A stretch of 64,000 bases of DNA from Populus alba. Lineage: Eukaryota > Streptophyta > Magnoliopsida > Malpighiales > Salicaceae. Positions 39,427-63,492 of this stretch are shown here, piece by piece; within the stretch, counting starts at the first letter, position 1; every line of letters starts with the position of its first letter. The notes under the pieces were generated by a model, which saw nothing but the letters and a program-made list of their open reading frames with translations, was not told the DNA's origin and did not search any database. The DNA lies in contig NC_133289.1 of assembly GCF_005239225.2 (NCBI RefSeq), forward strand, positions 15,608,889 to 15,672,888. The letters run 5' to 3'. The translations under genes were made by a program, and so were the position numbers.

Positions 39427-42010
39427 GGACTCATTTCATTGGTATATTCCACCAGACTCATTTCATTGGTATATATCGACTGAATTACAGACGAAATATA
39501 TAGAATTAAAAAAAAAAGTAGTTCAATAACATGGGAGTTTTTTTGAGTGATTTTATCGACGAACTTACCGAGGGATTCAATCTGAGATCTTTGTACAGTG
39601 ACATGATCAATTCACCGTTAGACTTACTGATAGAATGAGTTTGTCGGTATTTCCATCGATAAGAGTTAATATATAATCACTCTACCAACCCTCTCCTCTC
39701 TTATTTCTCCTTCTTCTTCTCCATCCCAACTCTCCCCTCCCAAATTGCAAACAACCACCCCACCCAAAATAAATCCCCCTCGTCTCAACACAAGTTATAT
39801 TTCTTTAAGTTTTGTGGTTAGAGCATCAGTGTTCTGATTTATTGTGGATTTTATCATTTTTATAAGTAAATCTATCTTTTTAATTTTAATATTTAAATGT
39901 CAATTTTTTTTAGTATACGTATTTTGTTAGTCTATGTGTATGTTTTATTGTTATTTCTCAAACAAAATTTTTGTATGAATGTATAATTTTGTACTTGTTA
40001 TGGTTTGTTTTAGATTTTGTAAAATTGTATTTGTTTGTAAATTATTGAAACTTTGTTGAATTACCGAATTACATGTGTTGTGGTGAAATAATTAATAGCT
40101 TGTTTAATGGGTCCGTTTTAATTTTTATAATGCTATTGTGGAGTTGTAATTTCCGTAAATTTATATGGACGTTGATAATTAATAACGAATATTTATGCGA
40201 AGTTTTAATTAGTTTGTTGGATAATCTAGAGGTAAACCAATATTTTTATAAATTTATTTACGTAACATAGTTAATTAATGCATGTTGTTGCTATGGTGTG
40301 AGAAAATCACGCGGAAACTAGGTAATATAAAAAACAATACAAGATTTTTTTGAAAAAAAATTATGTTTCAAAATATAATTTCTTGCTATGGAAGTAGGTT
40401 GCGTGATTTTTGGTATGAAGCACAAAAAAATGCAAAAAAAATGGCGAGAGATAATGGTCTTCAAGGCTGGAATGACGTGGTGGTTTAGAGGGATTTCAAA
40501 CCAATATACATCCCGGCAGATATATGGCCACTCTATCTTGAGCATGTGACGTTTGAATAGTTCACACGACGCTCACAGTTCGGTGCTGGCAACCAGAATC
40601 AGCCAATTCATGGCTCAGTCACAATGCACACCGGCAGCTCCGTTCCGTTTGCTACACATGCAAAACAGATAGTAAGATTAATTTAAATGAAATATATCGT
40701 TAAATTAATTTGTTGTTAATTAATTTTTTTTCATTATAGGCTACGTCTCTTGGACGTGAGCCGAGCCCAATGGAGCTGTTTGTTGAGACGCACGTGCAGA
40801 GTTAAGACCATCAAAAGTTGGCGCAATAGTTCATTGACAACCGTGCTCAACACTTTATGGTATATTTGTTCAACCATTTTATTTTGTAAGTTATTATTTT
40901 TATTGAATTGAATATGATGATTACATTTTTCATTTTCAGGAGACCTATAATAGCTGGTTGAGGGAGAGATATGGGGATAATCCTTCGACCCATCCATAAT
41001 TTGATCCGGATTTATGGATGGAGGTTGGATCGTTCGGTGGATCCGATAAAAATCAGGTTTACGGGCTCTCTAACACTACGGTCGAGAACTTGCGGGTGGC
41101 CCATAGTATCTCAACCATTGGGAGCTCTCAATCAGTATCGAGCACCCAAACTAAGGAGTTCGTGGCCTTGAAGCAACACACAGCTCAGCTCATCAAAAAA
41201 TACAACCACCTATCGGCGGAGTATACAGAACTCAAAGTGAATCATGAACAGCTTCGCGAAATAGTCATAAACATGGCATCACAGAGTAGTGATCCATGTG
41301 CGCCTCCTCTTTTTTGGTCGTATAACAACCAGCCTCCTCCTTATCCTTGTCCAGCTCCACCATTATGTTAATTTGTAATTAATATTTTTAATTTTAATAG
41401 TTAATTTAATATTTTTTTTAAAAAACACATTCAGTTTGTAATGAATATTATTTAACTTTTTTTTTGTTTTTGATGTTTAATAAAAAATTTATTTGCATAA
41501 TTGGTTTTTTTACTATTAATTTATATAATTTTATATTATGTATTCTAAATGATTTTTTTTTTTTAAAATTAAAAATACTCACCAAGGGTTTTACTGACGG
41601 ACTTTATCCGTCGGCATTTGACAAAGAGCAGGAAATGTCAATCTTAGCGAAGAATTTACATATGGAATTAATCCGTCGGTATTTTACAGTAGCTTGGTGG
41701 AAATTTTACAATCACCAAAGAGGTTACCGACGGAATAGTCTGTCTGTATTTCATACACTCACCGACAGAATAAATCCGTCGGTATATTTCAAGCAAGCAT
41801 TTTTTTTTTTGGCATGCAATTTCCGTCTGTAAAACCATCATAATTTTTTTTTGTTACCAACTAATGTAGTGATGAATAAGGTATTATCGACGAAAGGAAA
41901 GCCGACTGACGGTTTCCATCGGTGATGTCGTTGGTAAAAAAATTACCGACAAACTATGAATCACAAACCGATTGAATAGGTTCGTCGGTAAAACTGTGAA
42001 ATCTTGTAGT
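39427..42010 (+). mobile_element. CACTA (En/Spm) element A, partly degraded
   Basis: The right end reads AATCTTGTAGTG at 41999-42010, whose reverse complement is the CACTACAAGATT terminus of CACTA elements. Subterminal repeats of the form CCGACGGAATAA..CCGTCGGTA crowd 41580-42005 in both orientations, and weaker versions occupy 39427-39670. A pyrimidine-rich leader (39680-39760, CTCTCCTCTCTTATTTCTCC) precedes a Ptta-type protein relic. The left CACTA terminus and target duplication were not found, so the left boundary is approximate. Confidence 0.75.
40380..41371 (+). pseudogene. CACTA-encoded Ptta/En-Spm (Transposase_24-like) protein relic
   Basis: Segments read in shifting frames. GLQGWNDVVV is near 40460, and IYIPADIWPLYLEHVT near 40505. 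MELFVETHVQ at 40770 gives the E-F-x-x-TH signature. A 41018-41371 frame follows (YGLSNTTVENLRVAHSIS, a Gln/Lys-rich helix, and a Pro-rich end PPPYPCPAPP). This order is typical of plant Ptta/En-Spm proteins, which bind subterminal repeats. A spliced intron may separate 40660-40740 and 40880-40935 (both end in AG before coding). Stops such as TAG near 40558 show decay. The same protein appears again at 56640-57865. Confidence 0.7.
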
Positions 42011-43627: not shown

Positions 43628-43632
43628 TCATA
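43628..43632. repeat. Target-site duplication TCATA, left
   Basis: TCATA directly precedes the 5' LTR and is repeated directly after the 3' LTR at 55587-55591. This proves a single insertion event for the LTR element. Confidence 0.95.
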
Positions 43633-45349
43633 TGATTAATACTTAAAAGTGCATGTTTATCAAGGTTTTATATCATCATTTTGCACTTGAAGTATCAATA
43701 ACTCCTTAACTAAAGCATGTTTTATAATAACAAGTTTGATATTATAAGATACCTTAATTTATGGTAAATGCTCATTTTAAATGCAGGACTATCACATAAA
43801 TAAAAGGATTGATTGATGAGTTTAAGCATTGAAAGTTAAAGGACAAAGAGATGGCCAAACTTAGAAAAGAGATGTCGGTGCAGTCCAAACCGGAACATTG
43901 CTCGGTAATTGGATCATATCTGGAGCTCTAGATTTCGGATTTAGGTCCACTTTATATGGATGGAAAGGTAAGACAAAGGCCTACAACTTTCATGAGGAGC
44001 CCAAGATTTGAAAAGGTCGTTTTGAAGTCCAAATTGAAGGAACAACGAAGAAGTCCGAAGCTGTCCTGCAGCCCAAACACTTTTAGTGTTCAGCCCATAT
44101 CTTGAGTTCTAGAAGTCCAAATGACCTCATCTTTTTTTTTGTTGGAAAGCTGAGACAATTTCCTAGAACATTCTTGAGGATTCTGGGCAAATTATGATGT
44201 TAGCAATGACGTCTTGATCAGACAAGAAGATAAGGATTGTTATCTAGTCAAGATGTGGCCACCCACTCATCAATTAGTCAACAAATCAATAGTTCCAAAT
44301 TTTGGCCTATAAAAGGAGGCACTTACCATGTATTGAGGCATCTTGGTGTTCAGATCAAGATCATGCTCTTGCTTTCTCTCTTTGTATTGCTTATGTCTTG
44401 CTTTCATTAATATCAAGTTTATGCACTTCATTTCCTTTCCTTTGTCTAGTTAACTTCTTTCTCATTTATGTTCTTGTCTTGCTCATTTATGTTTCTTTCT
44501 TTTATTATGTCTAGCTAAGTTAATTATGTCAAGGTGAAAAGGGTACACTAATGGTGTAAGAACAAGTATAATATAAACTTAACATGGACCTTAACGTTGG
44601 ATACTAACATGTTTTTATATTTGTTATCTTGTTCACTTTAATACTTTGCTTGTTAAATGGTTAATCTAGATTTATGTTGTATAACACTTGGTACAACAAA
44701 TACTTGGCACTTTCATAGCCCATACTGTATGGTTTAACCGACACCTGAGCTATGAAAGGAACTTGATTTGTTGTTAACATAAGTTATAATCATGAATGCC
44801 TGCCAACATTTACAAGTATTAGCTTTATTCGAATAAGATAATTAATGTAATCATGTTAACAATTTATAATCTGATTGGAACCTCCTTTATGTGTGGTTTC
44901 CAATTGAGTAATAAGAGTTTATATTATACTTGTTTGAAGTACCATTAGTGGATCCTCTAACCTTGACATTTGTTTTTATCATTGTTTAATCCTTACGTTA
45001 ATCTTTTATCTCAAAGTTCTCATTAATTTCTTCATCTTCTGTTATTATTATTATTATCATTGTTATTATTATTATTATTATTTACATTCTGTTTATATTA
45101 TATAATATATATCTTTGATCTTTTCATAAAGTCAGTATATAGGCTGGAAACCTGTGACCCGATCTTTAGATCATTCTCAGGTATAACAACGCCACGTACT
45201 GAGTATTATTATTGTTGTTGTTGTTGTTGTCTTGTTATTTATAATTTATACAATTAACCTCTCTGTGGTTCGACCCCGGTCTTGCCGGGTTATTTATTAC
45301 TTCGACACTCCTGCACTTGGGAAGAGACATCAAGCTTTTGGTCGTGTCA
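43633..45349 (+). repeat. 5' LTR of the Athila-type element
   Basis: It starts TGATTAATACTTAAAAGTGC and ends GGTCGTGTCA (TG...CA), 1717 bp. It is 70 bp shorter than the 3' LTR, almost entirely through one- to few-base deletions. It contains TATA and GTT-rich microsatellite segments. Confidence 0.95.
44308..44316 (+). promoter_or_regulatory. LTR TATA box (TATAAAAGG)
   Basis: TATAAAAGG within GGCCTATAAAAGGAGGC is the only strong TATA box in the LTR and recurs in the 3' LTR at 54486. It probably drives the genomic RNA, with the start about 30 bp downstream. Confidence 0.7.
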
Positions 45350-45354
45350 AGTTT

Positions 45355-45372
45355 TGGCGCCGTTGCCGGGAG
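45355..45372 (+). other. Primer-binding site, tRNA-Asp type
   Basis: TGGCGCCGTTGCCGGGAG lies 5 bp after the 5' LTR. It is nearly complementary to the 3' end of plant tRNA-Asp (site TGGCGCCGTTGCCGGGGA), the usual Athila primer, differing by one missing G or a swap at the end. Confidence 0.85.
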
Positions 45373-45577
45373 GTAAATTCTTGTATAAATTATAATATTT
45401 AATTTATTTTCTCTTTTCACTTTTCATTTTATCTATTTTTGTTTCCTTTGTTTTGTTTTGTTTCTTTTCTTCTATTTTCTTTTCTTGCTTTTATTCTCTT
45501 CTTACACGTGCATGAGAGTTTGGTCACGTACATTAAGTGGTAGACTTTGTAGGGTATCCTCATCATTTTCAGAAAAT

Positions 45578-47180
45578 ATGGCCGAAGAAGATAATCAATC
45601 ACTTCATAATGAGAATAATGAGAATAACCGTATGAGAACACTTAGAGACCACATGAATCCCACAAGAACAAGTGCACCCTCATGCATAGTTTTCCCTCCT
45701 GATGCATCTCATTTTAATTTTAAGCCAGGCATTATTCAACTTTTACCATCTTTTCATGGCTTAGACTTAGAAAATCCATACTTGCATTTAAGGGAATTTG
45801 AGGAGGTTTGTAATACCTATAATGACTCAAATTGTAGCATGAACACCATTCGATTAAAGCTTTTTCCTTTTTCATTAAAAGATAAAGCTAAAACATGGCT
45901 ACAAAATTTGAGACCGGGATCCATTCGTGCTTGGGATGAAATGCAACAACAATTTTTAAAGAAGTTTTTTCCATCTCACAGAACAAACTCTTTCAAAAGA
46001 CAAATCATCACTTTCACTCAAAAACCAGGAGAAACATTTTACCAATGTTGGGATAGGTATCGAGATTTGCTTAATACTTGCCCACATCATGGTTTTGAAA
46101 CATGGAGATTGGTTTCACATTTTTATGAAGGTTTAACACCTAGAGATAGGCAAATGGTTGAATTGATGTGCAATGAAACTTTTGAAGATAAAGACCCTAA
46201 TGAAGCAATGGAGTACCTAGACTTGCTAGCTGAAAATGCTCAAAATTGGGACACCACAGGTACTTATGAGGCACCAAGTAAAACTCAACCTCATACATCT
46301 AGTGGAGGTATGCACAACCTTAGGGAAGATCATGACCTCCAAGCAAAGTTTGCATCTTTAGCTAGAAAAGTCGAAGCACTTGAATTGAAAAAGAGTGGTC
46401 AATTAAAATTTGTTCAAGACATTGTGTGTCAAATCTGTGAAACCAAGGAACACTCAACAAATGATTGTCCAACTTTGCCTTCTTTCAAGGAATGCCTCCA
46501 TGAACAAGCCCATGCTTTAAACAGTTTCAAAGACCCAACCATAACCCATACTCACAAACATATAACCCTGGTTGGAGAAATCACCCAAATTTTAGTTGGA
46601 AGAGTGATAGCAACAATGCACAAACTTCACATCCACTGTTTCAAGCACACCATAATTTCCAAAATTCTCATGGATATGCACCTCCTTATGCTCCACCTCC
46701 TAGAAGAAATTTTGAGGAAACATTGCATGCATTCATTGAAAAGCAGGAGACAATCAACACTCAACTTGCTCAAAGCATGACAGATTTTAAAGATGCTCTT
46801 GCAAAATTAACATCTGCTCTCAGTTTCCAAGAGAAAGGTAAGTTTTCCATCTCAACCACAACAAAATCCAAAAGGGCAATACAATGCAAATGCAAGTGGT
46901 TCTGGAAGCCAAACACATGGATCAAGTCAAATCAGTCATAACTCTTCGTAGTGGTAAGGTTATTGAAAAACCCATTCTTGAACCTTGTGAGAAAGATGAT
47001 GAGTCTATCTCTGAGGGTAAGGAAGGGGTTGAACCTGAACATTGCAAAGAGAAGGCTGATTCCCCGCCAGCACTTCCATTTCCTCATGCCATGACCAAAC
47101 AAAGGAAAGTCAATCACAACTCTGAAATCTTTGAAACTTTCAAAACAGGTAAGGATCAATATACCTTTGTTGGATGCTAT
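45578..47180 (+). pseudogene. gag polyprotein with CCHC zinc knuckle (frameshifted)
   Basis: The open frame spans 45458-46780; ATG at 45578 (MAEEDNQ) is the likelier start because the upstream codons are hydrophobic leader-like translation. The Retrotrans_gag core covers about residues 45-215 of that start (LLPSFHGLDLENPYLHLREF, KTWLQNL, AWDEMQQQFLKKFFP, FETWRLVSHFYEGL). A zinc knuckle C-x2-C-x4-H-x4-C is at 46427-46468 (CQICETKEHSTNDC). Near 46530 the frame slips. The continuation (Pro-rich NHPNFSW region, then EKQETINTQLAQSM and VITLRSGKV) is found in the two other frames up to about 47180. It packages genomic RNA in virus-like particles. The slips are single-base and may be sequence errors. 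Confidence 0.9.
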
Positions 47181-47279: not shown

Positions 47280-48164
47280 GTGCCATTTCTTCAGAACAAT
47301 AATGCTTTGAAATATAAAGACCCTGGTTGTCCTACAATTTCTTGCTTTATTGGAGAACATAAAATTGAAAGAGCCTTACTTGATCTTGGAGCTAGTGTGA
47401 ATTTACTTCCATATTCAGTTTTTCAGAGTCTCAATCTAGGTGAGTTAAAACCAACCTCTGTAACTCTTTTACTCGCCGATAGATCTGTAAAAGTGCCTAG
47501 AGGAATAATTGAAGATGTGTTGGTACAAGTTGATAAATTCATTTATCCTGTGGATTTTTTTGTCTTGGACACGCAACCTGTTGAAGCATGTAATTCAATT
47601 CCTGTCATTTTAGGACGTCCATTTCTTGCCACTTCTAATGCATTGATTAATTGTAGGAATGGACTGATGAAGCTATCATTTGGAAACATGACATTGGAGA
47701 TGAATATTTTCAACATTTACAAGCAACCTGAAGATGATAATGATTTACAGGAAGTGGACTTTATTGAAAAATTAGTTCATGATCAATTTCAAACCACTTC
47801 CAGTGAAACTGAGATTGATGAATCTGATGATTTGCAAATGGTCTACTTTCAGGAATCAAAGGCATGCAATTGGAGACCACAAATTGAAGAATTGCCACCA
47901 CGATCAATTGAGCCCATACCTTCAAGTGTTCAACCACCAAAACCTGAATTGAAGCCGTTACCATTTAATCTCAAATACTCATTTTTGGGAGAAAATGAAA
48001 CTTTTCCGGTAATAATCTCTTCCAAACTTAATGCACATCAAGAAGGTAAGTTATTACAGACTCTGAAAATGCACAAAAATGCATTAGGATGGACCATAGC
48101 TGACATAAAAGGAATTAGCCCTTTGATTTGCACACACAGGATTTATTTGGAGGAAAAATGCTAA
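47280..48164 (+). CDS. Aspartic protease and linker of pol (open segment)
   Basis: An uninterrupted 294-codon segment follows a conserved LCTVKRKLNV-type piece near 47220. It includes the retropepsin-like active site LLDLGASVNLLP (catalytic Asp codon 47382-47384), a flap-side LADRSVKVPRGI and the VILGRPFL motif near 47605. Then comes an acidic linker and the start of RT (LNAHQEGKLLQTLKMHKNAL..TI.DIKGISP). It ends with a frame slip near 48155 in an A-run, after which the RT frame resumes. It processes the polyprotein. Confidence 0.88.
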   Translation: MPFLQNNNALKYKDPGCPTISCFIGEHKIERALLDLGASVNLLPYSVFQSLNLGELKPTSVTLLLADRSVKVPRGIIEDVLVQVDKFIYPVDFFVLDTQPVEACNSIPVILGRPFLATSNALINCRNGLMKLSFGNMTLEMNIFNIYKQPEDDNDLQEVDFIEKLVHDQFQTTSSETEIDESDDLQMVYFQESKACNWRPQIEELPPRSIEPIPSSVQPPKPELKPLPFNLKYSFLGENETFPVIISSKLNAHQEGKLLQTLKMHKNALGWTIADIKGISPLICTHRIYLEEKC

Positions 48165-48910
48165 ACCCTCTAGAGAAATGCAACGAAGGCTTAATCCTAA
48201 TATGAAAGAAGTAGTGAAAAATGAAGTCATTAAGCTTCTAGATAATGGAATCATTTATCCTATTTCTGATAGCAAATGGGTAAGTCCTACCCAAGTTGTA
48301 CCCAAAAAGTCTGGAGTCCACTGTGATAACAAATGAGAAAAATGAGTTAATTCCAACTAGGACTGTTACGGGTTGGCGCATGTGCATTGACTATAGGAAA
48401 CTTAATTCAATGACTAGAAAAGATCATTTCCCTTTACCTTTCATGGACCAAATCCTAGAAAGAGTTGCAGGTCATGAATTTTATTGTTTCCTAGATGGTT
48501 ATTCAGGTTACAATCAAATTGAAATTGCATTGGAAGATCAAGAGAAGACTACTTTCACATGTCCATTTGGTACTTTTGCATATCGAAGGATGCCTTTTGG
48601 ATTATGTAATGCACCCAGCCACGTTTCAAAGATGCATGCTTAGCATATTCAGTGATATGGTTGAACGTTTTCTTGAAATTTTTATGGATGATTTTTCTGT
48701 TTTTGGTGATTCATTTGATGATTGTTTGACTAACTTAGAAAAGGTTTTGAGCAGGTGTGAAGAGAAGAATCTTGTACTGAATTGGGAAAAATGTCACTTT
48801 ATGGTAACAAACGGCATCGTACTTGGTCACATTGTGTTCATCGAAAGGAATGAGGTTGACAAATCTAAAATTGAGTTAATTGCCAAACTTACCAACACCA
48901 AAATCTGTTA
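48165..48910 (+). pseudogene. Reverse transcriptase (frameshifted)
   Basis: The first part reads in one frame from about 48165 (REMQRRLNPNMKEVVKNEV, PISDSKWVSPTQVVPKKSG). After a slip near 48320, frame 48296-48643 gives WRMCIDYRKLN, FPLPFMDQ, FLDGYSGYNQI and FGTFAYRRMPFGLCNAP. After another slip near 48620, frame 48495-48911 gives FMDDFSVFG (catalytic Asp pair at 48687-48692), NLEKVLSRCEEKNLVLNWEK and GIVLGHIV. All RT core motifs are present in order. Only frame slips and no missense loss of the catalytic residues were noted. Confidence 0.9.
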
Positions 48911-49520
48911 AAGATGTTAGATCATTCTTAGGACATGCTGGTTTTTACAGAAGGTTCATCAAAGATTTTAGTGTAATATCTAAGCCCTTGAGTAACCTTC
49001 TAACAAAGGATAATATTTTTGAATGGACTGAACATTGTGAGGAAGCCTTTGTTAAACTTAAAAACTTGCTTACTTCTGCCCCTGTCATTCAACCTCCTGA
49101 TTGGTCATTACCTTTTGAAATAATGTGTGAACGCTAGCGATTATGCCGTGGTGCTGTCTTGGGACAAAGGAAAGATAAGAAACCTTATGTGATTTACTAT
49201 GCAAGTAAAACTTTAAATAGTGCTCAAATGAATTTACACTACCACTGAAAAAGAATTACTTGCAGTAGTATTTGCATGTGACAAGTTCAGATCTTATCTT
49301 GTTGGCTCACCTGTTATTGTTTTTAGTGATCATGCAGCATTGAAATATCTTATCTCTAAGAAAGATTCTAAGGCTAGATTGTGCGGTGGATTTTGTTACT
49401 TCAAGAATTTGATATCACAATCAAAGACAAGAAAGGCACCGAAAATGTTGTCGCGGATCATTTGTCAAAGATTGACAACCGATTCGAGATCTGACATTAC
49501 ACCAATCGATGACTACTTTC
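48880..49520 (+). pseudogene. RNase H domain (frameshifted)
   Basis: Frame 48880-49137 reads SVKDVRSFLGHAGFYRRFIK, NIFEWTEHCEEAFVKLK and PDWSLPFEIMC. After slips it continues AVLGQRKDKKPYVIYYASKT near 49160, [20 protein letters not shown] near 49270 and VVADHLSKI near 49460. This is the connection plus RNase H, which removes RNA from the hybrid. There are at least three frame slips. Confidence 0.85.
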
Positions 49521-49560
49521 CTGATGAATCTTTATTTTTCTGTCTCTACGATGCCTTGGT

Positions 49561-50780
49561 TTGCTAATATTGTTTAATTTTCTTGTTTCAGGACAATTGC
49601 CAGCTCATTGGAGTACCCCAAGACAAAAAAAGTTCTTGAACGAAGTAAAGAACTTTTATTGGGATGACCCTTATTTATTCAAATATTGTCCTGATCAAAT
49701 ATTTCGAAGATGCATTCCTGACAATGAGGTAAGTAGTGTCATTAAATTTTGTCATTCTGAGGCATGTGGGGGTCATTTCTCATCAAGAAAGACAACTGCA
49801 AAAATCTTACAAAGTGGATTCTATTGGCCCACCATGTTCAAAAGACTCACATGCATTCTGTAAGATTTGTGAAAATTGTCAAAAGTTGGGATCTATTTCG
49901 AAACGTCACATGATGCCTTTAAATCCTATTCTTGTCATTGAGATCTTTGATTGTTGGGGTATAGATTTCATGGTCCATTTCCTCCATCATTTGGTTTCTT
50001 GTACATATTGGTCGCAGTAGATTATGTTTCAAAATGGATAGAGGCAATTCCAAGTCGAACCAATGATCACAAAATAGTGATAAAGTTTTTGAAAGAAAAA
50101 CATTTTAAGTCGATTTGGAAATCCCTCGAGCCATGATAAGTGACGGTGGAACACACTTTTGCAACAAGCCATTTGAGTCTTTAATGAAGAAATATGGAAT
50201 CACACATAAAGTTGCCACCCCTTATCACCCTCAGACAAGTGGACAAGTAGAGCTTGCTAATAGGGAGATCAAACAGATCTTGGAGAAAACAGTGAACCCT
50301 AATAGGAAAAGACTGGTCTTTTAAGACTTAATGATGCACTTTGGGCTTATCGAACTGCTTATAAAAACATCATTAGGGTATGTCACCTTATAGACTAGTC
50401 TATGGAAAACCTTGTCACTTGCCTGTGGAAATTGAACATAAAGCTTATTGGGCTATTAAAGCTTTCAATTTAAGCCTTGATGATGCTAGTCAACTGCGAA
50501 AATTGCAAAATAAATGAGCTTGAGGAAATTAGAAATGATGCATATGACAATTCAAGAATTCATAAAGCAAGATTCAAAGAGTTTCATGACAAGAAAATAC
50601 TAAGAAAAACATTCAATGTTGGTCAAAAAGTCTTGCTTTATAATTCTCGACTCCATTTATTTCCTGGAAAACTAAGATCAAGATGGAGCGGTCCTTTTAT
50701 TGTGAAACATGTGTATCCATTATGGGGCCTGTGATATCGAGAATCCAAAGAATGGCAATGTTTTCAAGGTAAATGGGCAA
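49561..50780 (+). pseudogene. Integrase (frameshifted)
   Basis: The zinc domain is split across frames: HSEACGGHFSSRKTTAKILQ (49750-49810) supplies the two His, and CKICENCQKLG (49863-49895) the two Cys. The catalytic core has GIDFM near 49960, [11 protein letters not shown] near 50135 and [20 protein letters not shown] near 50225-50280, giving D-D-E. The C-terminal part has [13 protein letters not shown] and [15 protein letters not shown] near 50615-50720. No chromodomain follows. The frames shift at least four times by single bases. Confidence 0.88.
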
Positions 50781-51073: not shown

Positions 51074-51710
51074 ATGGACAGCACTCTTGAAAAGTTGAAA
51101 AGGTATTTTCCCGCTCTGCCTCAGAATGCGATTACAAAAATTTACCGTGCTAGGTGTGAAAGGTTACGGTTGTTAATGAATCATGGAATTCCTGAAGATA
51201 TTCGCTGGCTAATTGAAGCAAAGGTCCCGATTATCAGGTGAAGTCCTCCAATTCTTTCATTTCACACATGCCTGAAACAGGTAAAAGCACTTTTGCAAAA
51301 GAAACGTCGTGCAAAACGACTGAAAGTCTGTCACAGATGTGCCAGATGGACTTGTAATGCGACATGTCGTTCTTTAGGAATGGTATCTGTAAACCGTGAA
51401 GAAAAAGATACAATTCATTAAGGATGGCCTGAGTAAGGGGTCTTTTAGATAATCTTTTGTTGACCCTTGAGACGCATCCTAGTGGAGATGTGCATCGTGT
51501 AATTCATGATTTATGGCCACAATTCCATAAAGAACATGATCGACTTAGTCTTGGGAATCTGACTAAAAAAGACCCTGTTTGCCAGTTTTTAAGAAAACTG
51601 GATGGGAAGCCTATCCCCGACCCATAGAGGGCGTTTAAAGCCGTTCTTGGACGTAAAACCAAGGGAAGATGTGAGCCACAATCACAACTACCTGTACATA
51701 CATGCTTTTT
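51074..51710 (+). pseudogene. Accessory ORF 1: basic Cys-rich protein relic
   Basis: An ATG at 51074 starts MDSTLEKLKRYFPALPQ and a charged helix (ARCERLRLLMNHGIPEDIRW). After one in-frame TGA at 51239 the same frame continues KKRRAKRLK and the cysteine cluster C-x2-C-x4-C-x3-C (CHRCARWTCNATC, about 51348-51386). A one-base slip in an A-run near 51405 leads to IQFIKDGLSKGSF, and another slip to LETHPSGDVHRVIHDLWPQF and PVCQFLRKLDGKPIPDP near 51600. It is not the usual Athila env-like ORF. The Arg/Lys-rich arm followed by a compact Cys cluster and an FI.DG element recalls the short nucleic-acid-binding (NABP) proteins of carlaviruses and relatives, but that similarity is weak and unverified. 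No known function is claimed. Confidence 0.55.
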
Positions 51711-51872
51711 CAAAATAAATAATTAATAAAGAGAGAGAGAGTTTGTGAGACTACAGCTGGCCTACATATAGGTGGTATGATTGCATTTTCACTTTTTCAT
51801 CTATAAATTCTTCTCTTCCTTCCCTTCATTTCTACTCATCCCATATTATTCAAAATATAGAAGTGTGTAGAA

Positions 51873-52500
51873 ATGGCAGGTTCCTCAAGTCATCATATAA
51901 GAAATATTTGTGTTTTCGGTGGATCCAGTTCTGGGAAAGAAAAAGAGTTTTTAGAATCAGCAAATCATCTTGGCCGGTACTAGCTGAAGAGAAAGATTCA
52001 TTTAGTGTATGGGGGAGGTAGCCTTGGGTTAATGGGAGGTGTGTCAATGGCTGCATTTTTAGGAGGCAGTCAAGTTTTGGGGGTTGTCCCCAAAGCTTTA
52101 GCAAATGGGGACATCATTGGAAAAAACAATTGGAGAAAGAACTACAGGTCCCAAACAATGTCTGACCGACTGAATACCATGTTTAACCATGCTGATGCCT
52201 TCATTGCCTTACCAGGTGGTCTGGGCACATTGGAAGAGATCTTTCATATTTCATCTTGGGCCCAACTGCACATTCACCATAAACCCATAGGTTTGTTTTA
52301 AATATTAAATGGTTTTTATGATAAGTTGCTGTCTTTCCTTGATCAAGCTGTGGAACAGGAATTTCTAAACATCTTCGGCACGACGAATCATAATCTCTGC
52401 TGCTACTGCTGAACAATTGATTGACCAACTACAATCTTTCATCCCTGTCATTGATCCCTGCATGAGTCGTCTAGATTGGTCAACTAAGGAAAGCCGGTAA
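51873..52500 (+). pseudogene. Accessory ORF 2: LONELY GUY (LOG)-like phosphoribohydrolase, intronless
   Basis: The ATG at 51873 starts MAGSSSHHIRNICVFGGSSS, matching the N-terminus of LOG enzymes. These hydrolyse cytokinin riboside 5'-monophosphates to active bases. Then come LVYGGGSLGLMG, VLGVVPKAL, MSDRLNTMF (the conserved Arg) and DAFIALPGGLGTLEEI (PGGxGTxxE, nucleotide-binding and catalytic Glu). A C-terminal SSWAQLHIHHKPIGL and LLSFLDQAVEQEF follow. A one-base slip near 52370 leads to RRIIISAATAEQLIDQLQSF and a natural stop at 52498. Lesions: TAG near codon 38, TAA after GLF (52299-52301) and the slip. About 208 codons match LOG length. No introns are present, while plant LOG genes are multi-exon, so it came through an RNA intermediate. 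It lies in the sense orientation between pol and 3' LTR. Confidence 0.9.
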
Positions 52501-53083
52501 AAAGCTTAGATTAGATTTGAGCCTTCATCTGTGAAACCTTGTGTCTTTTGGTTTTATTAATAGCATATTATTTTGTTTTGTTACTTCTTAATGTTTGTTT
52601 AAGTGTGTTTCAGGTTTGTCATTGTTCGCTGTTTCAGGTGATGTCTTCTATACTCTATCTTTCTACCTTCGAACATTGAGGACAATGTCTTGTTTTGGTT
52701 GGGGGGAGAGGGTAGTAGTTTAAAAAAAAAAAAAAAAAAAAAATACTAACTTGCTAACTGTTTTTGCTATTATTAAAACCATTTGACAAATTGTTATTAG
52801 GATGGCAGAGTATGGAATCAATTTTATTGACTCTAGAGACACATCTTAGTAAGTTTCATTACCAAGGTCTATCATAATACTTCTTGAAATATTCAGGTTT
52901 ACAAACTCTCACATTGTTATCACTTGATTCTGCTTTTATACTCATTTAACAAGTATTATTAAACCTTCATTTTCACAACACACACACACTTTAACATATG
53001 ATTGTGGGTGCACATTGGATTATTACATTAATTATGTTCTTTGTTGAAGGTAACAACTAAGGGAAAAGGATAGTATATAATTT

Positions 53084-53119
<36 letters not shown>

Positions 53120-53799
53120 ATAGTATTGATTGATAATAAAAACGTGGATAAGTTTGGTTTTCGTAGCCTCCCTAACCTAAGCAATTAAGCCCGAAGGGGT
53201 GTTTTAACACCTAATACCCTAAAGTCAACTGACTTGGGAGCTATTGGCCCAAAGCTTGTTACATGGGTTAAGGAGAAAAGCTTAAGGGAATCAAAACATT
53301 GCACTATCTACGTATCAGTATCTGCAACCCGAGTTGTTAAGCTCGTAGGGGTGTCTCAACACCTAATGCCCTAAGATCAACTGGTCTGGGAGTCATTAGC
53401 CTAAAACTCGTTACACGGGTTAAAGATACATTGTGTTTTTAAGTTGTATGTGTATTAAATAAAAAGAAAAAAAAAAAAAAAAAAAAAAAAAAGAAGAAAG
53501 AAAAAAAATAATAATCCCAACCCAAGGAAGTTCACCTTAAACATTTGAACATAATATATGTTTTCTTCCAACAAAAGCCCCATCATCTATGTTTTCATGA
53601 GCACACAAAAAGAAGGTTTATTAATATCTTTGTTTACGAAGTATGAAGCAGGAATATAAATTTAATGAGAGTTTGTGTTTATCTGGATAGATTAATGGAA
53701 GTTGAATATGAATGCCTTTGCTTTGTGGAACTTGCAAATTGTTTCTCTATTTAACGCTTTAGATTACTAGGGACTAGTAATAAGCTGGTTGGGGGGTTG
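52501..53799 (+). other. 3' untranslated region of the Athila element, with A-tracts and tandem units
   Basis: It contains the Athila-typical CATTGAGGACAATGTCTTG and GGTTGGGGGGAGAGG near 52675-52710. Long A-runs lie near 52721, 53083 and 53469. A duplicated ~105-bp unit (53171-53276 and 53323-53427, both with AGGGGTGT..CAACACCTAAT.CCCTAA) is present. A purine-rich tract GGTTGGGGGGTTG (53787-53799) lies next to the 3' LTR as the second-strand primer. Confidence 0.7.
53171..53427 (+). repeat. Two tandem units, ~152-bp spacing
   Basis: The shared landmarks AAGC(C/T)CG.AGGGGTGT, ACACCTAAT(A/G)CCCTAA, CAACTG.(C/T)TGGGAG and GTTACA(T/C)GGGTTAA recur in the same order. They are separated by a short spacer in the 3' part of the LTR element. 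Confidence 0.8.
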
Positions 53800-55586
53800 T
53801 GATTAATACTTAAAAAGTGCATGTTATCAAGGTTTTATATCATCATTTTGCACTTGAAGTATCAATAACTCCTTAACTAAAGCATGTTTTATAATAACAA
53901 GTTTGATATTATAAGATACCTTTAATTTATGGTAAATGCTCATTTTAAAATGCAGGACTATCACATAAATAAAAGGATTGATTGATGAGTTTAAGCATTG
54001 AAAGTTAAAGGACAAAGAGATGGCCAAACTTAGAAAAGAGATGTCGGTGCAGTCCAAACCGGAACATTGCTCGAGGTAAATTGGATCATATCTGGAGCTC
54101 TAGATTTCGGATTTAGGTCCACTTTATATGGATGGAAAGGTAAGACCAAAGGCCTACAACTTTCATGAGGAGCCCAAGATTTGAAAAGGGTCGTTTTGAA
54201 GTCCAAATTTGAAAGAACAACGAAGAAGTCCGAAGCTGTCCTGCAGCCCAAACACTATTTAGTGTTCAGCCCATATCTTGAGTTCTAGAAGTCCAAATGA
54301 CCTCATCTTTTTTTTTTGTGGAAAGCTGAGACAATTTCCTAGAACATTCTTGAGGATTCTGGGCAAATTTATGATGTTAGCAATGACGTCTTGATCAGAC
54401 AAAAGATAAGGATTGTTATCTAGTCAAGATGTGGCCACCACACTCATCAATTAGTTCAACAAATCAATAGTTTCCAAATTTGGCCTATAAAAGGAGGCAC
54501 TTTACCATGTATTGAGGCATCTTGGTGTTCAGATCAAGATCATGCTCTTGCTTTCTCTCTTTGTATTGCTTATGTCTTTTGCTTTCATTAAATATCAAGT
54601 TTATATGCACTTTCATTTCCTTTCCTTTGTCTAGTTAACTTTCTTTTTCTCATTTATGTTCTTGTCTTGCTCATTTATGTTTCTTTCTTTTATTATGTCT
54701 AGCTAAGTTAATTATGTCAAGGTGAAAAAAGGGTACACTAATGGGTGTAAGAACAAGTATAATATATAAAACTTAACATGGACTTAACGGTTGGATACTA
54801 ACATGTTTTTATATTTGTTATCTTGTTCACTTTAAATACTTTGCTTGTTAAAATGGTTAATCTAGATTTATGTTGTATAAACACTTGGTACAACAAATAC
54901 TTGGCACTTTCATAAGCCCATACTGTATGTTTAACCGACACCTGAGCTATGAAAGGAAACTTGATTGTTGTTAACATAAGATTATAATCATGAATGCCTG
55001 CCAACATTTACAAGTATTAGCTTTAATTCGAATAAGATAATTAAATGTTTAAATCATGTTAACGAATTTATAATCTGATTTGGAACCTCCTTTATGTGTG
55101 GTTTCCAATTGAGTAATAAGAGTTTATATTATAACTGTATTTTGAAGTACCATTAGTGGATCCTCTAACCTTGACATTATTTGTTTTTAATCATTGTTTA
55201 AATCCTTACGTTAATCTTTTATCTCAAAGTTCTCATTAATTTCTTCATCTTCTGTTATTATTATTATTATCATTGTTATTAAATATTATTGTTATTTATT
55301 ATTATTGATTATTTACATCTCTGTATTATATATATAATATATATCTTTGATCTTTTCATAAAGTCAGTATATAGCTGGAAACCTGTGACCCGATCTTTAG
55401 ATCATTCTCAGGTATAACAGAAACGCCACGTACTGAGATATTATTATTGTTGTTGTTGTTGTTGTCTTGTTATTTATAATTTATTACAATTAACCTCTCT
55501 GTGGTTCGACCCCGGTCTTGCCGGGTTATTTATTACTTTTCGACACTCCTGCACTTGGAAGAGACATCAAGCTTTTGGTCGTGTCA
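53800..55586 (+). repeat. 3' LTR of the Athila-type element
   Basis: 1787 bp, TGATTAATACTT...GGTCGTGTCA. It aligns end to end with the 5' LTR. Nearly all differences are short indels, with the 3' copy usually longer. It carries a TATA box at 54486-54492. Confidence 0.95.
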
Positions 55587-55591
55587 TCATA
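55587..55591. repeat. Target-site duplication TCATA, right
   Basis: TCATA directly after the 3' LTR is identical to 43628-43632. Confidence 0.95.
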
Positions 55592-56639: not shown

Positions 56640-57865
56640 TTTTTTTAGCAGCACTTCTGATGATCATGATTCGTTATGTGCCGACTAAGAACAGACACCC
56701 GAGACACAGGCAACCACGCTCGACGCGAGCTTATCAAGTTCGATGCCATCATACCAGACCTTGTGGAAGAACAACCTTCCAATGTAAGTTTGTTTTCCCT
56801 TCACAATGACATCTTAATAAATTTTGAAATTTTAATTTCAATTAACGAATGCAATTTCAAGTTTGCAAAACATTGAAGTTGCTAGAACCATAACATTAGA
56901 GATGAAATCATCGATGGGAATTATATTGTTTTAATGGAGTCAAGTTTTCAAATATCCTGAATGGAAACCTATAATAAATGCATGTGGAAGGTTTAAGGTT
57001 TGTATTAACTTAATATTTTTTTATTATTATTATGTTAATTCAGTTAGTTTATTAATATTAATGAAATTTTTACTTATAAATTTTAATTACAAGGAAAATT
57101 TGAATGGGATAGAGCTGACAATGCTATTGCAATGAGGATTTAAGATAATCACGTTACAACTACGTAAGATTAGAATCAAGATAAAAAAATTTAATCCTTT
57201 TATTCAATTTTATTTTTCATTTACTAATAGATAATTTATTTGTACCATATAGGTTGCGTGATTTTTTTGTACGAAATGCAAAAAAAAAAAAAGAAGAAGA
57301 AAGAAAGAGTGCTTTTAGGCTGGGAGGATATGGTGGTTTTAGAGGATTTTAGACCACTATACATCTCGTAGGCTGTGTGGGTGAAATATATTCAGCATGT
57401 GACATCTGAAGTTTTTTTTAATTTGTTGTTTTTTTTTCAAGATAAATGTAAAACTCGGTTGAAGAAGAAATACATGAATGATTATTTGATCCATCTAGAT
57501 CTTGATTCGAATTTATGGTTAGAGGTAGGATTGTTTAGTAGACATGATATAAATTGGGTGTATAATCTGTCTAACACTACGACAAGGACTTGTGGATGGC
57601 CTATGATGTTTCAACTGTTAGATGCTTGCAATATGTTCTTAATACTCAAATTTCTAAGTTTGAGGAAATTTTAGACCACCAAATTCAAGCTCAAATGACT
57701 CATCTTATTACTGATTATGAACAACTTAGTGCTGAGACGACCAAACTCTGCCAATTGGTAATGGAGATGAGATCATAATTCGATGGTGCATGTGCTCTTC
57801 CTTATTGGCTCCACTATTCCAACGTGGACTTGCCTCCTCCTTCTCTTTCAACTAGCTCATATATT
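56640..57865 (+). pseudogene. Ptta/En-Spm-like protein relic of CACTA element B
   Basis: A basic N-terminal piece (TKNRHPRHRQPRSTRAYQ, 56680-56740) and a probable splice donor after CTTCCAATGTAAGT lie near 56775. Then RLRDFFVRNAKKKKKKK appears near 57255, a YKWIQHVT/YIQHVT-like piece near 57390, and DSNLWLEVGLF, YNLSNTTTRT and YDVSTVRC near 57505-57610. A C-terminal helix ends CQLVMEMRS (57590-57778). These pieces parallel, in the same order, the relic at 40380-41371 (SNTTVENLR..SIST). Frameshifts and stops show it is dead. Confidence 0.65.
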
Positions 57866-58940: not shown

Positions 58941-59230
58941 TGTTAGAGAATAATATAAATCATATCCTAGAATTTTATCTAACAGCTTAAGCTTTTGAGT
59001 TGAATTGATTCTTTGACATGGTATCAAAGTTTTGATGACCAAGTGGTCACGAGTTCAAATCTCACCATCCCCATTTATTTGATAAAATTAAGCATAGGGT
59101 AAAGTGGGTCTGTGCAAGTTTCAAGCCCAAAGAACTTTCACTTAAGGGGATGTGTTAGAGAATAATATAAATCATATCCTGGAACCTCACCTAACAGTTT
59201 AAACTTTTGGGTTGAATTGGTTCTTTGACA
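58941..59230 (+). mobile_element. Complete TRIM element (miniature LTR retrotransposon), 290 bp
   Basis: The 78-bp terminal repeats are 58941-59018 and 59153-59230. Both begin TGTTAGAGAATAATATAAAT and end TTCTTTGACA. A primer site TGGTATCAAAG (initiator tRNA-Met type TGGTATCAGAG) follows the first LTR at once. A purine-rich CTTAAGGGGATG precedes the second. Perfect 5-bp duplications flank it. The 134-bp interior has no coding capacity, so it depends on another element. The two LTRs differ at several positions (substitutions), giving a modest age. The interior GAGTTCAAATCTC resembles a tRNA B box. Confidence 0.93.
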
Positions 59231-62715: not shown

Positions 62716-63124
62716 CAGTAGCCAAAACTTTCAAGTTTATCCCAAAAGAAGCCTTATTAAAATTGGTGATATTTAAACCCGTGTCTTATGGTACAAGAGT
62801 CATGGACATCTAAAATACCAAAGAGAAAAGAGAAAAAAAAAATCACTATGTTTTTAGACTTCTCACCATGGTTCATTTACAATGTATAAGTTGTGAATAA
62901 ACCTTTTTTCTTTAAACATCTTTTAGACCAAGTTCTTAACTTAAAAAATCAGGGTTTGATCATTGTGACAATCCCATAATTGATACACTAATAGAAATAG
63001 AAACACCATTAGATCATAGCAACCACAAACAAAGAAAAACAATGCAACTTACCTTAGGTAAGGTATACTAAGGGTGTTAATACATTTTTTTATACAATCA
63101 GTCTCTTGCCTAAAATCTCTAAAA
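62716..63124. other. No gene seen
   Basis: AT-rich, no motif. Confidence 0.4.
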
Positions 63125-63492
63125 CTCTATCCAACCAAAAACCTCTTAACCCATCTGGAAAAAGTTATCATGACATCACACTATCAAGTAGGGTACGAAA
63201 TATAGCGCCGATCCAATTCTAGATTTGTTTTCTATTACTCCAAGGATATAATTGAAAGCATATTCATCGTCCCATGTCCATTAAAAATGATATTATTATA
63301 TATGACGACTTTATCCGATCAAAAACCTCTTAACCTATCTGGAAAAAGTCATCGTGACGTCACACTATCATGTAGGGTACGAAATATAGCGACAATCCCA
63401 TTCTAGATTTTTTTTATCTATTTCTCCAAGGATATAATTGAAAGCATATTCACCGTACTTAGTCAATTGAGAATGATATTATTGTTTATGAA
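63125..63492. repeat. 184-bp tandem duplication
   Basis: Units 63125-63308 and 63309-63492 share AAAAACCTCTTAACC.ATCTGG, GTAGGGTACGAAATATAGCG and CTCCAAGGATATAATTGAAA in order. They have about ten percent differences. Confidence 0.9.

Follow-up and report, generated by a model that had tools for sequence, protein, structure and literature searches.

Accessory coding domains have been described before in gypsy-type retrotransposons of plants, and LOG domains in such elements are already in print: a domain screen published in 2022 (PMC9289625) reported a YgdH/LOG domain in gypsy elements of Citrus sinensis and C. clementina, with Populus trichocarpa below its filter, and cited Steinbauerova et al. 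(2011, Genetica). These elements resemble the one described here in carrying the LOG domain as an extra ORF, and probably belong to the same or a sister family. In the accessible part of that paper they occupy one sentence of the screen, which gives no position, copy number, state of the reading frames, selection, pocket residues, NABP-like partner or LOG-less copies. In Phalaenopsis, too, a gypsy family carries an extra enzyme domain, an RNA demethylase of the AlkB type (PMC9289625); enzyme, element and host are different, and activity was shown in vitro there, while that of the poplar LOG is a prediction. Athila elements, the clade to which we assign our family, have extra ORFs such as ORF-1 (pfam03078; PMC6317226), in place of which the present family has an NABP-like and a LOG-like ORF.

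The two accessory genes also have described relatives outside retrotransposons. Three of the element-borne LOG-like proteins (retro-LOGs) are 49–51% identical to the plant LONELY GUY protein AtLOG3 (2a33) and 44–47% identical to AtLOG8 (1ydh), and have the catalytic Arg and Glu and the PGGxGTxxE motif in common with them; in contrast to plant LOGs, they are intronless and mobile, form a long separate branch, and have the Lys, His and Glu of the pocket replaced. Carlavirus-type NABPs (PF01623 Carla_C4, PF05515 Viral_NABP) have two features in common with the NABP-like ORF, the basic stretch KKRRAKRL and, after it, a cluster of cysteines, but the ORF is encoded by an LTR retrotransposon, spaces its cysteines as C-x2-C-x4-C-x3-C, and has a C-terminal third that lies outside the Pfam matches. 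The carlavirus NABPs are thought to bind RNA or small RNAs, and we take the p12 protein of chrysanthemum virus B to belong to the same two Pfam families. That p12 protein is described as a nuclear transcriptional activator and a cytoplasmic suppressor of RNA silencing (PMC7588395).

The window analysed here is a stretch of 64,000 nucleotides of the Populus alba genome. Our overall explanation, to which we give a probability of about 0.6, is that its element belongs to a Populus family of the Athila clade that carries NABP-like and intronless LOG-like accessory genes between the integrase and the 3' LTR. As far as the literature covered shows, the NABP partner, the census of copies and frames, the pocket changes, the TATA-bearing leader and the LOG-less copies are new.

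Structure and clade of the element

The first-pass annotation of the window had described an Athila-type element, bounded by paired LTRs and a target duplication, whose env position is taken by a LOG homologue that is intronless, sense-oriented and nearly full-length; our analysis confirms this. Pfam matches and LTR alignment identify the element as a Ty3/gypsy LTR retrotransposon, with paired LTRs, a primer-binding site, the order gag-PR-RT-RH-IN, and the target-site duplication TCATA at both edges. Its features, with the evidence for each in parentheses, are as follows.

43628..43632, no strand: 5' target-site duplication TCATA (sequence at LTR edge)
43633..45349, plus strand: 5' LTR, 1717 bp (LTR pair alignment)
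45355..45371, plus strand: PBS-like sequence TGGCGCCGTTGCCGGGA (read from the sequence)
45389..46780, plus strand: gag-bearing ORF, Retrotrans_gag (Pfam)
47280..48164, plus strand: aspartyl protease piece (Pfam)
48284..48643, plus strand: reverse transcriptase piece, RVT_1 (Pfam)
49232..49567, plus strand: RNase H piece, RT_RNaseH (Pfam)
49528..50734, plus strand: integrase region (Pfam H2C2 zinc-binding match in 49528-49863)
51074..51627, plus strand: NABP-like accessory ORF, interrupted in the window copy and 182 aa long in open copies (family from unbroken sisters)
51720..52496, plus strand: segment absent from LOG-less sister copies (junction comparison, 6 of 10 sampled)
51802..51807, plus strand: TATAAA, about 71 bp upstream of the LOG start codon
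51873..52534, plus strand: LOG-like coding stretch, interrupted in the window copy by internal stops and frame slips and 217 aa long in open copies
52535..53786, plus strand: 3' non-coding region, containing A-tracts and two repeats of the 'GTTACAC/TGGGTTA' type (sequence reading)
53787..53799, plus strand: polypurine-tract-like GGTTGGGGGGTTG adjoining the 3' LTR (sequence reading)
53800..55586, plus strand: 3' LTR, 1787 bp (LTR pair alignment)
55587..55591, no strand: 3' target-site duplication TCATA (sequence at LTR edge)

The reverse transcriptase frame is broken in the window copy, and the Pfam scan here covers 48284..48643 and not the adjoining ORFs to 49137. Within the integrase region, 50474-50734 gave no Pfam match; the integrase core domain was matched in a sister copy (L010). 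Extra ORFs of Athila elements sit downstream of pol, as they do here, and the primer-binding type of TGGCGCCGTTGCCGGGA is presumably the one typical of the Athila/Tat group. Within that group, an additional archaeal-type RNase H (aRH) separates Tat (Ogre, Retand) from Athila, which is without it (PMC6317226). The stop-free frames scanned in L010 yielded reverse transcriptase, RNase H and integrase core and no second RNase H, and we therefore assign the family to Athila rather than Tat. The Athila ORF-1 domain (pfam03078) had no match in the scanned ORFs of the window and sister copies, but this is not decisive, because only a minority of Athila elements (16%; PMC6317226) have it.

In the LOG-like stretch, 51984-52298 matches PF03641 with 83.1 bits against a curated cut-off of 27 (E 2.5e-23), and Arabidopsis LOG3 with E 3.4e-26. 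Compared by tblastn, the 217-aa LOG protein P0200 aligns to 51873-52503 at 75% and 71% identity, the alignment being divided between two frames that contain internal stops. By our reading of the sequence, coding continues slightly past the end given in the first-pass annotation (51873..52500), as far as a stop at 52532-52534.

Once aligned, the two LTRs agree at 1703 positions and differ by 5 mismatches and 56 gaps; the 5' LTR row holds 47 of these gaps, and all are 1–3 bases long except one of 17. Such an imbalance, 5 substitutions against 56 gaps, suggests residual assembly error in the window copy, and the combination of few substitutions with many one-base gaps is what a recent insertion would show if some assembly errors remained in it. 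If poplar accumulates 2.5e-9 substitutions per site per year, 5 changes in 1708 LTR sites correspond to an insertion age of roughly 0.6 million years. The earlier suggestion that the lesions of the LOG frame are partly sequence error gains some ground from the gap-rich LTRs, although the lesions are real as written in the assembly.

Other observations concern the LTRs and the surroundings of the element. The Rfam family MIR2912 matches both LTRs on the minus strand (43959-44113, 108.9 bits; 54131-54289, 95.5 bits; gathering 54), and because this family overlaps the LTR of a retrotransposon, MIR2912 may be a small RNA that comes from the element and not a microRNA of the classic kind. Elsewhere in the genome, two family copies abut at their LTRs in opposite orientation (L015:1-2990). 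Similar peptides (DPDLWMEVGSF.. and DSNLWLEVGLF..NLSNTT) flank the element at 41000-41371 and 57372-57674; we take them to resemble pieces of plant transposases, and older DNA transposons may enclose or border the element. Short direct duplications of 78 to 108 bp, 84–89% identical, lie outside the element at 58941-59230 and 63124-63491.

Copies and origin of the LOG-like gene

A search of the 416-Mb P. alba assembly (96 contigs) found LOG DNA at 40 or more places including the window, all at 97% identity or higher (best 40 of 1185 candidates). In 40 of 40 fetched copies, which lie on many contigs, the element was present on both sides of LOG, a recurrence that excludes chance. The same context was found for 20 of 20 further copies, chosen from the P0200 protein-match list, at 91–97% DNA identity to the window, so that all 60 copies (L001-L060) have the same element beside LOG. 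Other elements do, then, carry LOG at the same position, as the first-pass annotation had asked, and two of the findings that it had named as refuting its reading, a lack of other LOG-bearing copies and the presence of host introns, were not made. The absence of introns follows from the uninterrupted frame of 217 codons in open copies. This full frame is open in 22 of the first 40 copies and not open in 18. A strict frame pattern, too strict for some divergent copies, scored 31 of the 60 frames as open, and beyond the first 40 it recognised fewer than are stop-free in the P0200 protein-match list; open frames occur in sequence groups A, B1 and B2. With P0200 as protein query, 136 of the best 150 matches (of 1750 candidates) were near full-length without an internal stop, a proportion that favours intact copies because the matches are ranked by score. 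The family thus comprises more than decayed remnants, many of its copies being open.

Some LOG-bearing copies have lost other parts. Among 20 long stretches, six (L009, L012, L016, L021, L023, L025) contained LOG without a match to the reverse transcriptase segment; the gap lies between protease and integrase, LOG and its flanks are in place, and the LOG frame is open in three of the six. These copies are probably non-autonomous, since no reverse transcriptase match was found between protease and integrase.

Database retro-LOG proteins come from P. alba, P. x canadensis and P. trichocarpa. In a small tree, retro-LOGs lie on a long branch apart from AtLOG3, AtLOG8 and two bacterial LOGs, and the LOG alignment found no relatives among bacterial and archaeal genome contigs. 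Queries of the P. alba genome with P0200 (from P. trichocarpa, named LOGL10), with a 103-aa piece of P0222 and with Arabidopsis LOG3 gave best-150 match sets with top identities of 85% and 88% for the first two, and with identities of 49–53% in single long frames for the third. These matches look like element copies, as judged from 20 on the P0200 list and those that fell among the first 40 copies. A 43-aa piece of LOG3 had one likely host exon (C2:865530-865622, 84%), and the other 149 matches listed were mostly of the element type. The exon match has an abrupt start inside the query, at its residue 13, and this single example therefore fits an intron-bearing host LOG, as host plant LOG genes are split by introns. 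The donor gene of the element-borne LOG was not found among the best 150 matches of each query; a host donor divided into exons could be hidden there, because these lists are filled by repeats.

The NABP-like companion ORF

A second accessory ORF of 182 aa, absent from the first-pass annotation, ends 235–255 bp upstream of the LOG start. It is open in 20 of 40 copies, and both it and LOG are open in 12 of 40. Three unbroken ORFs matched Viral_NABP (E 2.3e-7 to 2.1e-6) and Carla_C4 (E 4.5e-6 to 5.5e-6), above both curated cut-offs. A protein search found 539 relatives at E <= 0.01, and the named hosts among the best 120 are Populus alba, P. x canadensis, Xanthoceras sorbifolium and Acer yangbiense. 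From these 120 we hand-picked 31 for diversity and length, maple and Xanthoceras included, and aligned them; both Carla_C4 and Viral_NABP were matched by 31 of 31 at E <= 0.01, the comparison with the cut-off score applying to the first member only. In the protein P0237 the Pfam matches stop at residue 116 of 182, and a conserved C-terminal third lies beyond. The structure predicted from the 31 sequences had a pLDDT of 58, too low for a fold search. Neither the NABP alignment nor the LOG protein or LOG alignment had relatives among viral contigs (IMG/VR), and in the open-licence literature we found no NABP ORF in LTR elements.

For selection, we compared the 19 open copies from poplar whose length is exactly 182 aa. 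Variants shared among them comprise 15 synonymous and 6 nonsynonymous changes (p 1.7e-6 against neutral expectation), in contrast to 7 synonymous and 22 nonsynonymous singletons, and the difference between the two classes is significant (p 0.0014). Since nonsynonymous changes make up only 6 of the 21 shared variants and the contrast with singletons is significant, these sequences clearly point to purifying selection on the NABP-like gene.

Residues, selection and possible roles of the LOG-like gene

Structural work on LOG proteins (PMC4979012, CgLOG numbers) names Arg99 and Glu122 as catalytic and Met96, Lys100 and Glu121 as adenine-binding, and assigns Met96, His97, Lys100, Glu125 and Trp129, all five the same in AtLOG3, OsLOG and CpLOG, to the likely prenyl pocket. 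We took a census of these residues in 99 full-length retro-LOG proteins, those of 205–222 aa among 235 fetched. The catalytic Arg and the catalytic Glu are each present in 94 of 99, and the pocket Met and Trp occur in 98 and 93. The phosphate loop is mostly retained; the strict PGGxGTxxE motif is found in 67 of the 99, and in P. alba it is present in P0123, P0186, P0209 and copy L009. (P0186 and P0123 are annotated only as 'hypothetical protein'.) Three other pocket positions are replaced throughout: the Lys100 place has no Lys (Leu 64, Met 32, Ile 2, His 1), the Glu125 place no Glu (His 97, Arg 1, Tyr 1), and the His97 place no His (Ser 75, Phe 18, Tyr 5, Val 1). Genomic copies of P. alba agree, with the catalytic Arg in 57/59 and Glu in 57/60, Leu, Met or Cys in the Lys place in 59/59, and His in the Glu place in 60/60. 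Judged by these residues, the catalytic core stands and the cytokinin pocket does not match, and because three of the five prenyl-pocket residues are replaced, true cytokinin activation by retro-LOG is doubtful. The epithet 'cytokinin-activating' of the first-pass annotation is accordingly hard to keep, the adenine/prenyl pocket being altered in every copy read. Among plant enzymes, the wheat group III LOG TaLOG10-1B is listed as active on iPRMP (PMC11593424).

The dN/dS ratio among copies, which had been proposed as a check, was computed for the 40 copies of group A against the 13 of group B, leaving out 7 of the 60 (L048-L051, L055, L056, L058). Mean dN was 0.0465 and mean dS 0.1735, a ratio of 0.27 (codon bootstrap on random A-B pairs, 0.12–0.58). 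The p-distance of the non-coding flanks was 0.08–0.11, and the case for selection is weaker when this yardstick is used instead of dS, since it puts the LOG ratio nearer 0.5. Distances from a 330-bp window at the NABP end (A-B1 0.020, A-B2 0.105) were left unused; the window had probably slid into the leader, the value of 0.105 conflicting with the 95–96% identity there in most B2 copies. Among the 40 A copies, LOG variants common to several copies comprise 7 synonymous, 6 nonsynonymous and 1 stop; leaving out the stop, 6 of 13 are nonsynonymous against a neutral expectation of 77% (p 0.016). Singletons comprise 15 synonymous, 22 nonsynonymous and 1 stop, and the contrast between shared and singleton variants within A is not significant (Fisher p 0.52). 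Of 60 copies, 59 have a TATAAA in the 130 bp that precede the LOG start, 65–73 bp upstream and at -72 in 52 of them; homology alone suffices to explain this common position.

To ask how LOG is distributed, we turned to copies of the NABP-like gene. A genome search with P0237 gave NABP matches (best 150 of 1717 candidates), 20 places seemingly without LOG were picked among the matches listed, and 621 bases downstream were examined for 10. LOG was present in four and absent in six, all six with a stop-free NABP match and an identical junction (window 51719|52497) that removes the LOG leader and all but about the last dozen codons, so that the 3' end of the LOG frame stays. Because copies without LOG have spread, LOG is dispensable for transposition. 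In a short-flank tree of 65 copies, in which many supports are low, the LOG-less six are placed at two separate points among LOG bearers of group A. The divergent groups B1 and B2 have LOG too, although B copies were found through LOG and LOG-less ones would have been missed. The most economical account is that LOG was lost secondarily and that template switching perhaps spread the loss. Splicing was considered as the cause and rejected, the missing segment not being GT-AG. The opposite order, in which the LOG-less state is ancestral, LOG bearers are a younger branch that gained LOG by insertion between the two bases of the junction, and the last dozen LOG codons were element sequence from the beginning, would account for the one clean junction in six copies and for a missing segment that does not look spliced, but the nesting of these copies among bearers, the LOG of B1 and B2, and the retained 3' end of the frame make it improbable.

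The spread of the LOG-less sub-lineage also bears on whether LOG does anything for the element. It could be a neutral hitch-hiker amplified along with a successful element; the 18 of 40 copies that are not open, the flank distances not much above those of LOG, and the non-significant contrast within A are all consistent with this, but the ratio of 0.27 between subfamilies, the open frames in A, B1 and B2 and the retention of the TATA-bearing leader lead us to regard such a passenger as unlikely. If LOG is instead a working cytokinin riboside 5'-monophosphate phosphoribohydrolase that raises free cytokinin in cells where the element is active, its PF03641 match, its identity to AtLOG3, its catalytic Arg and Glu and the signs of purifying selection would be expected; the loss of the pocket Lys, His and Glu from all 99 proteins, and likewise from P. 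alba copies, makes this doubtful as well. Lys100 in particular is tied to adenine, and changes of AMP-binding or catalytic residues to alanine, S19A excepted, almost completely abolished activity (PMC4979012). A one-off later insertion or assembly artefact at the window locus might have been suspected from the broken frame and the gap-rich LTR pair of the window copy, but the element on both sides of LOG in 40 of 40 copies on many contigs, and the proteins from three kinds of poplar, leave practically no room for it.

The reading that we prefer remains an Athila-clade family with two accessory genes, and it suggests the following course. LOG would have been taken from a plant LOG gene by read-through transcription, splicing and template switching, and capture by read-through would bring a promoter and a spliced frame together. 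The element is predicted to express LOG from this TATA promoter of its own, and the product would act as a phosphoribohydrolase on a nucleotide 5'-monophosphate, not necessarily that of an isoprenoid cytokinin. By analogy with what is thought of carlavirus NABPs, the NABP-like protein would bind element RNA or small RNAs. Together the two would favour expression of the element in dividing cells, with LOG helpful and not essential. More speculatively, and held only tentatively, Athila elements of rosid trees may carry a cassette in which an NABP sharing descent with carlavirus-type proteins, in either direction, is joined in Populus by a LOG with its own promoter, re-tuned away from the cytokinin pocket, both being selected for the element against RNA silencing and to shift nucleotide or hormone pools.

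If the enzyme works, a gene of a hormone pathway or of nucleotide metabolism resides in selfish DNA, with more than 100 stop-free copies in one tree genome, and mobile DNA here travels with what resembles a small host-manipulation kit. Manipulation of host cell state by a retrotransposon would then be directly testable, the natural LOG-bearing and LOG-less copies providing the comparison. The NABP neighbour connects plant retroelements with the accessory genes of RNA viruses, and element copies may swell the number of LOG genes counted in annotations of poplar genomes.

The C-terminus of the retro-LOGs has a feature of its own. Most of 19 aligned proteins end in a tail resembling KKLRLDLSLxL, the LDLSL of which we take to resemble the LxLxL (EAR-type) motif, and the codons of this tail remain in the LOG-less copies.
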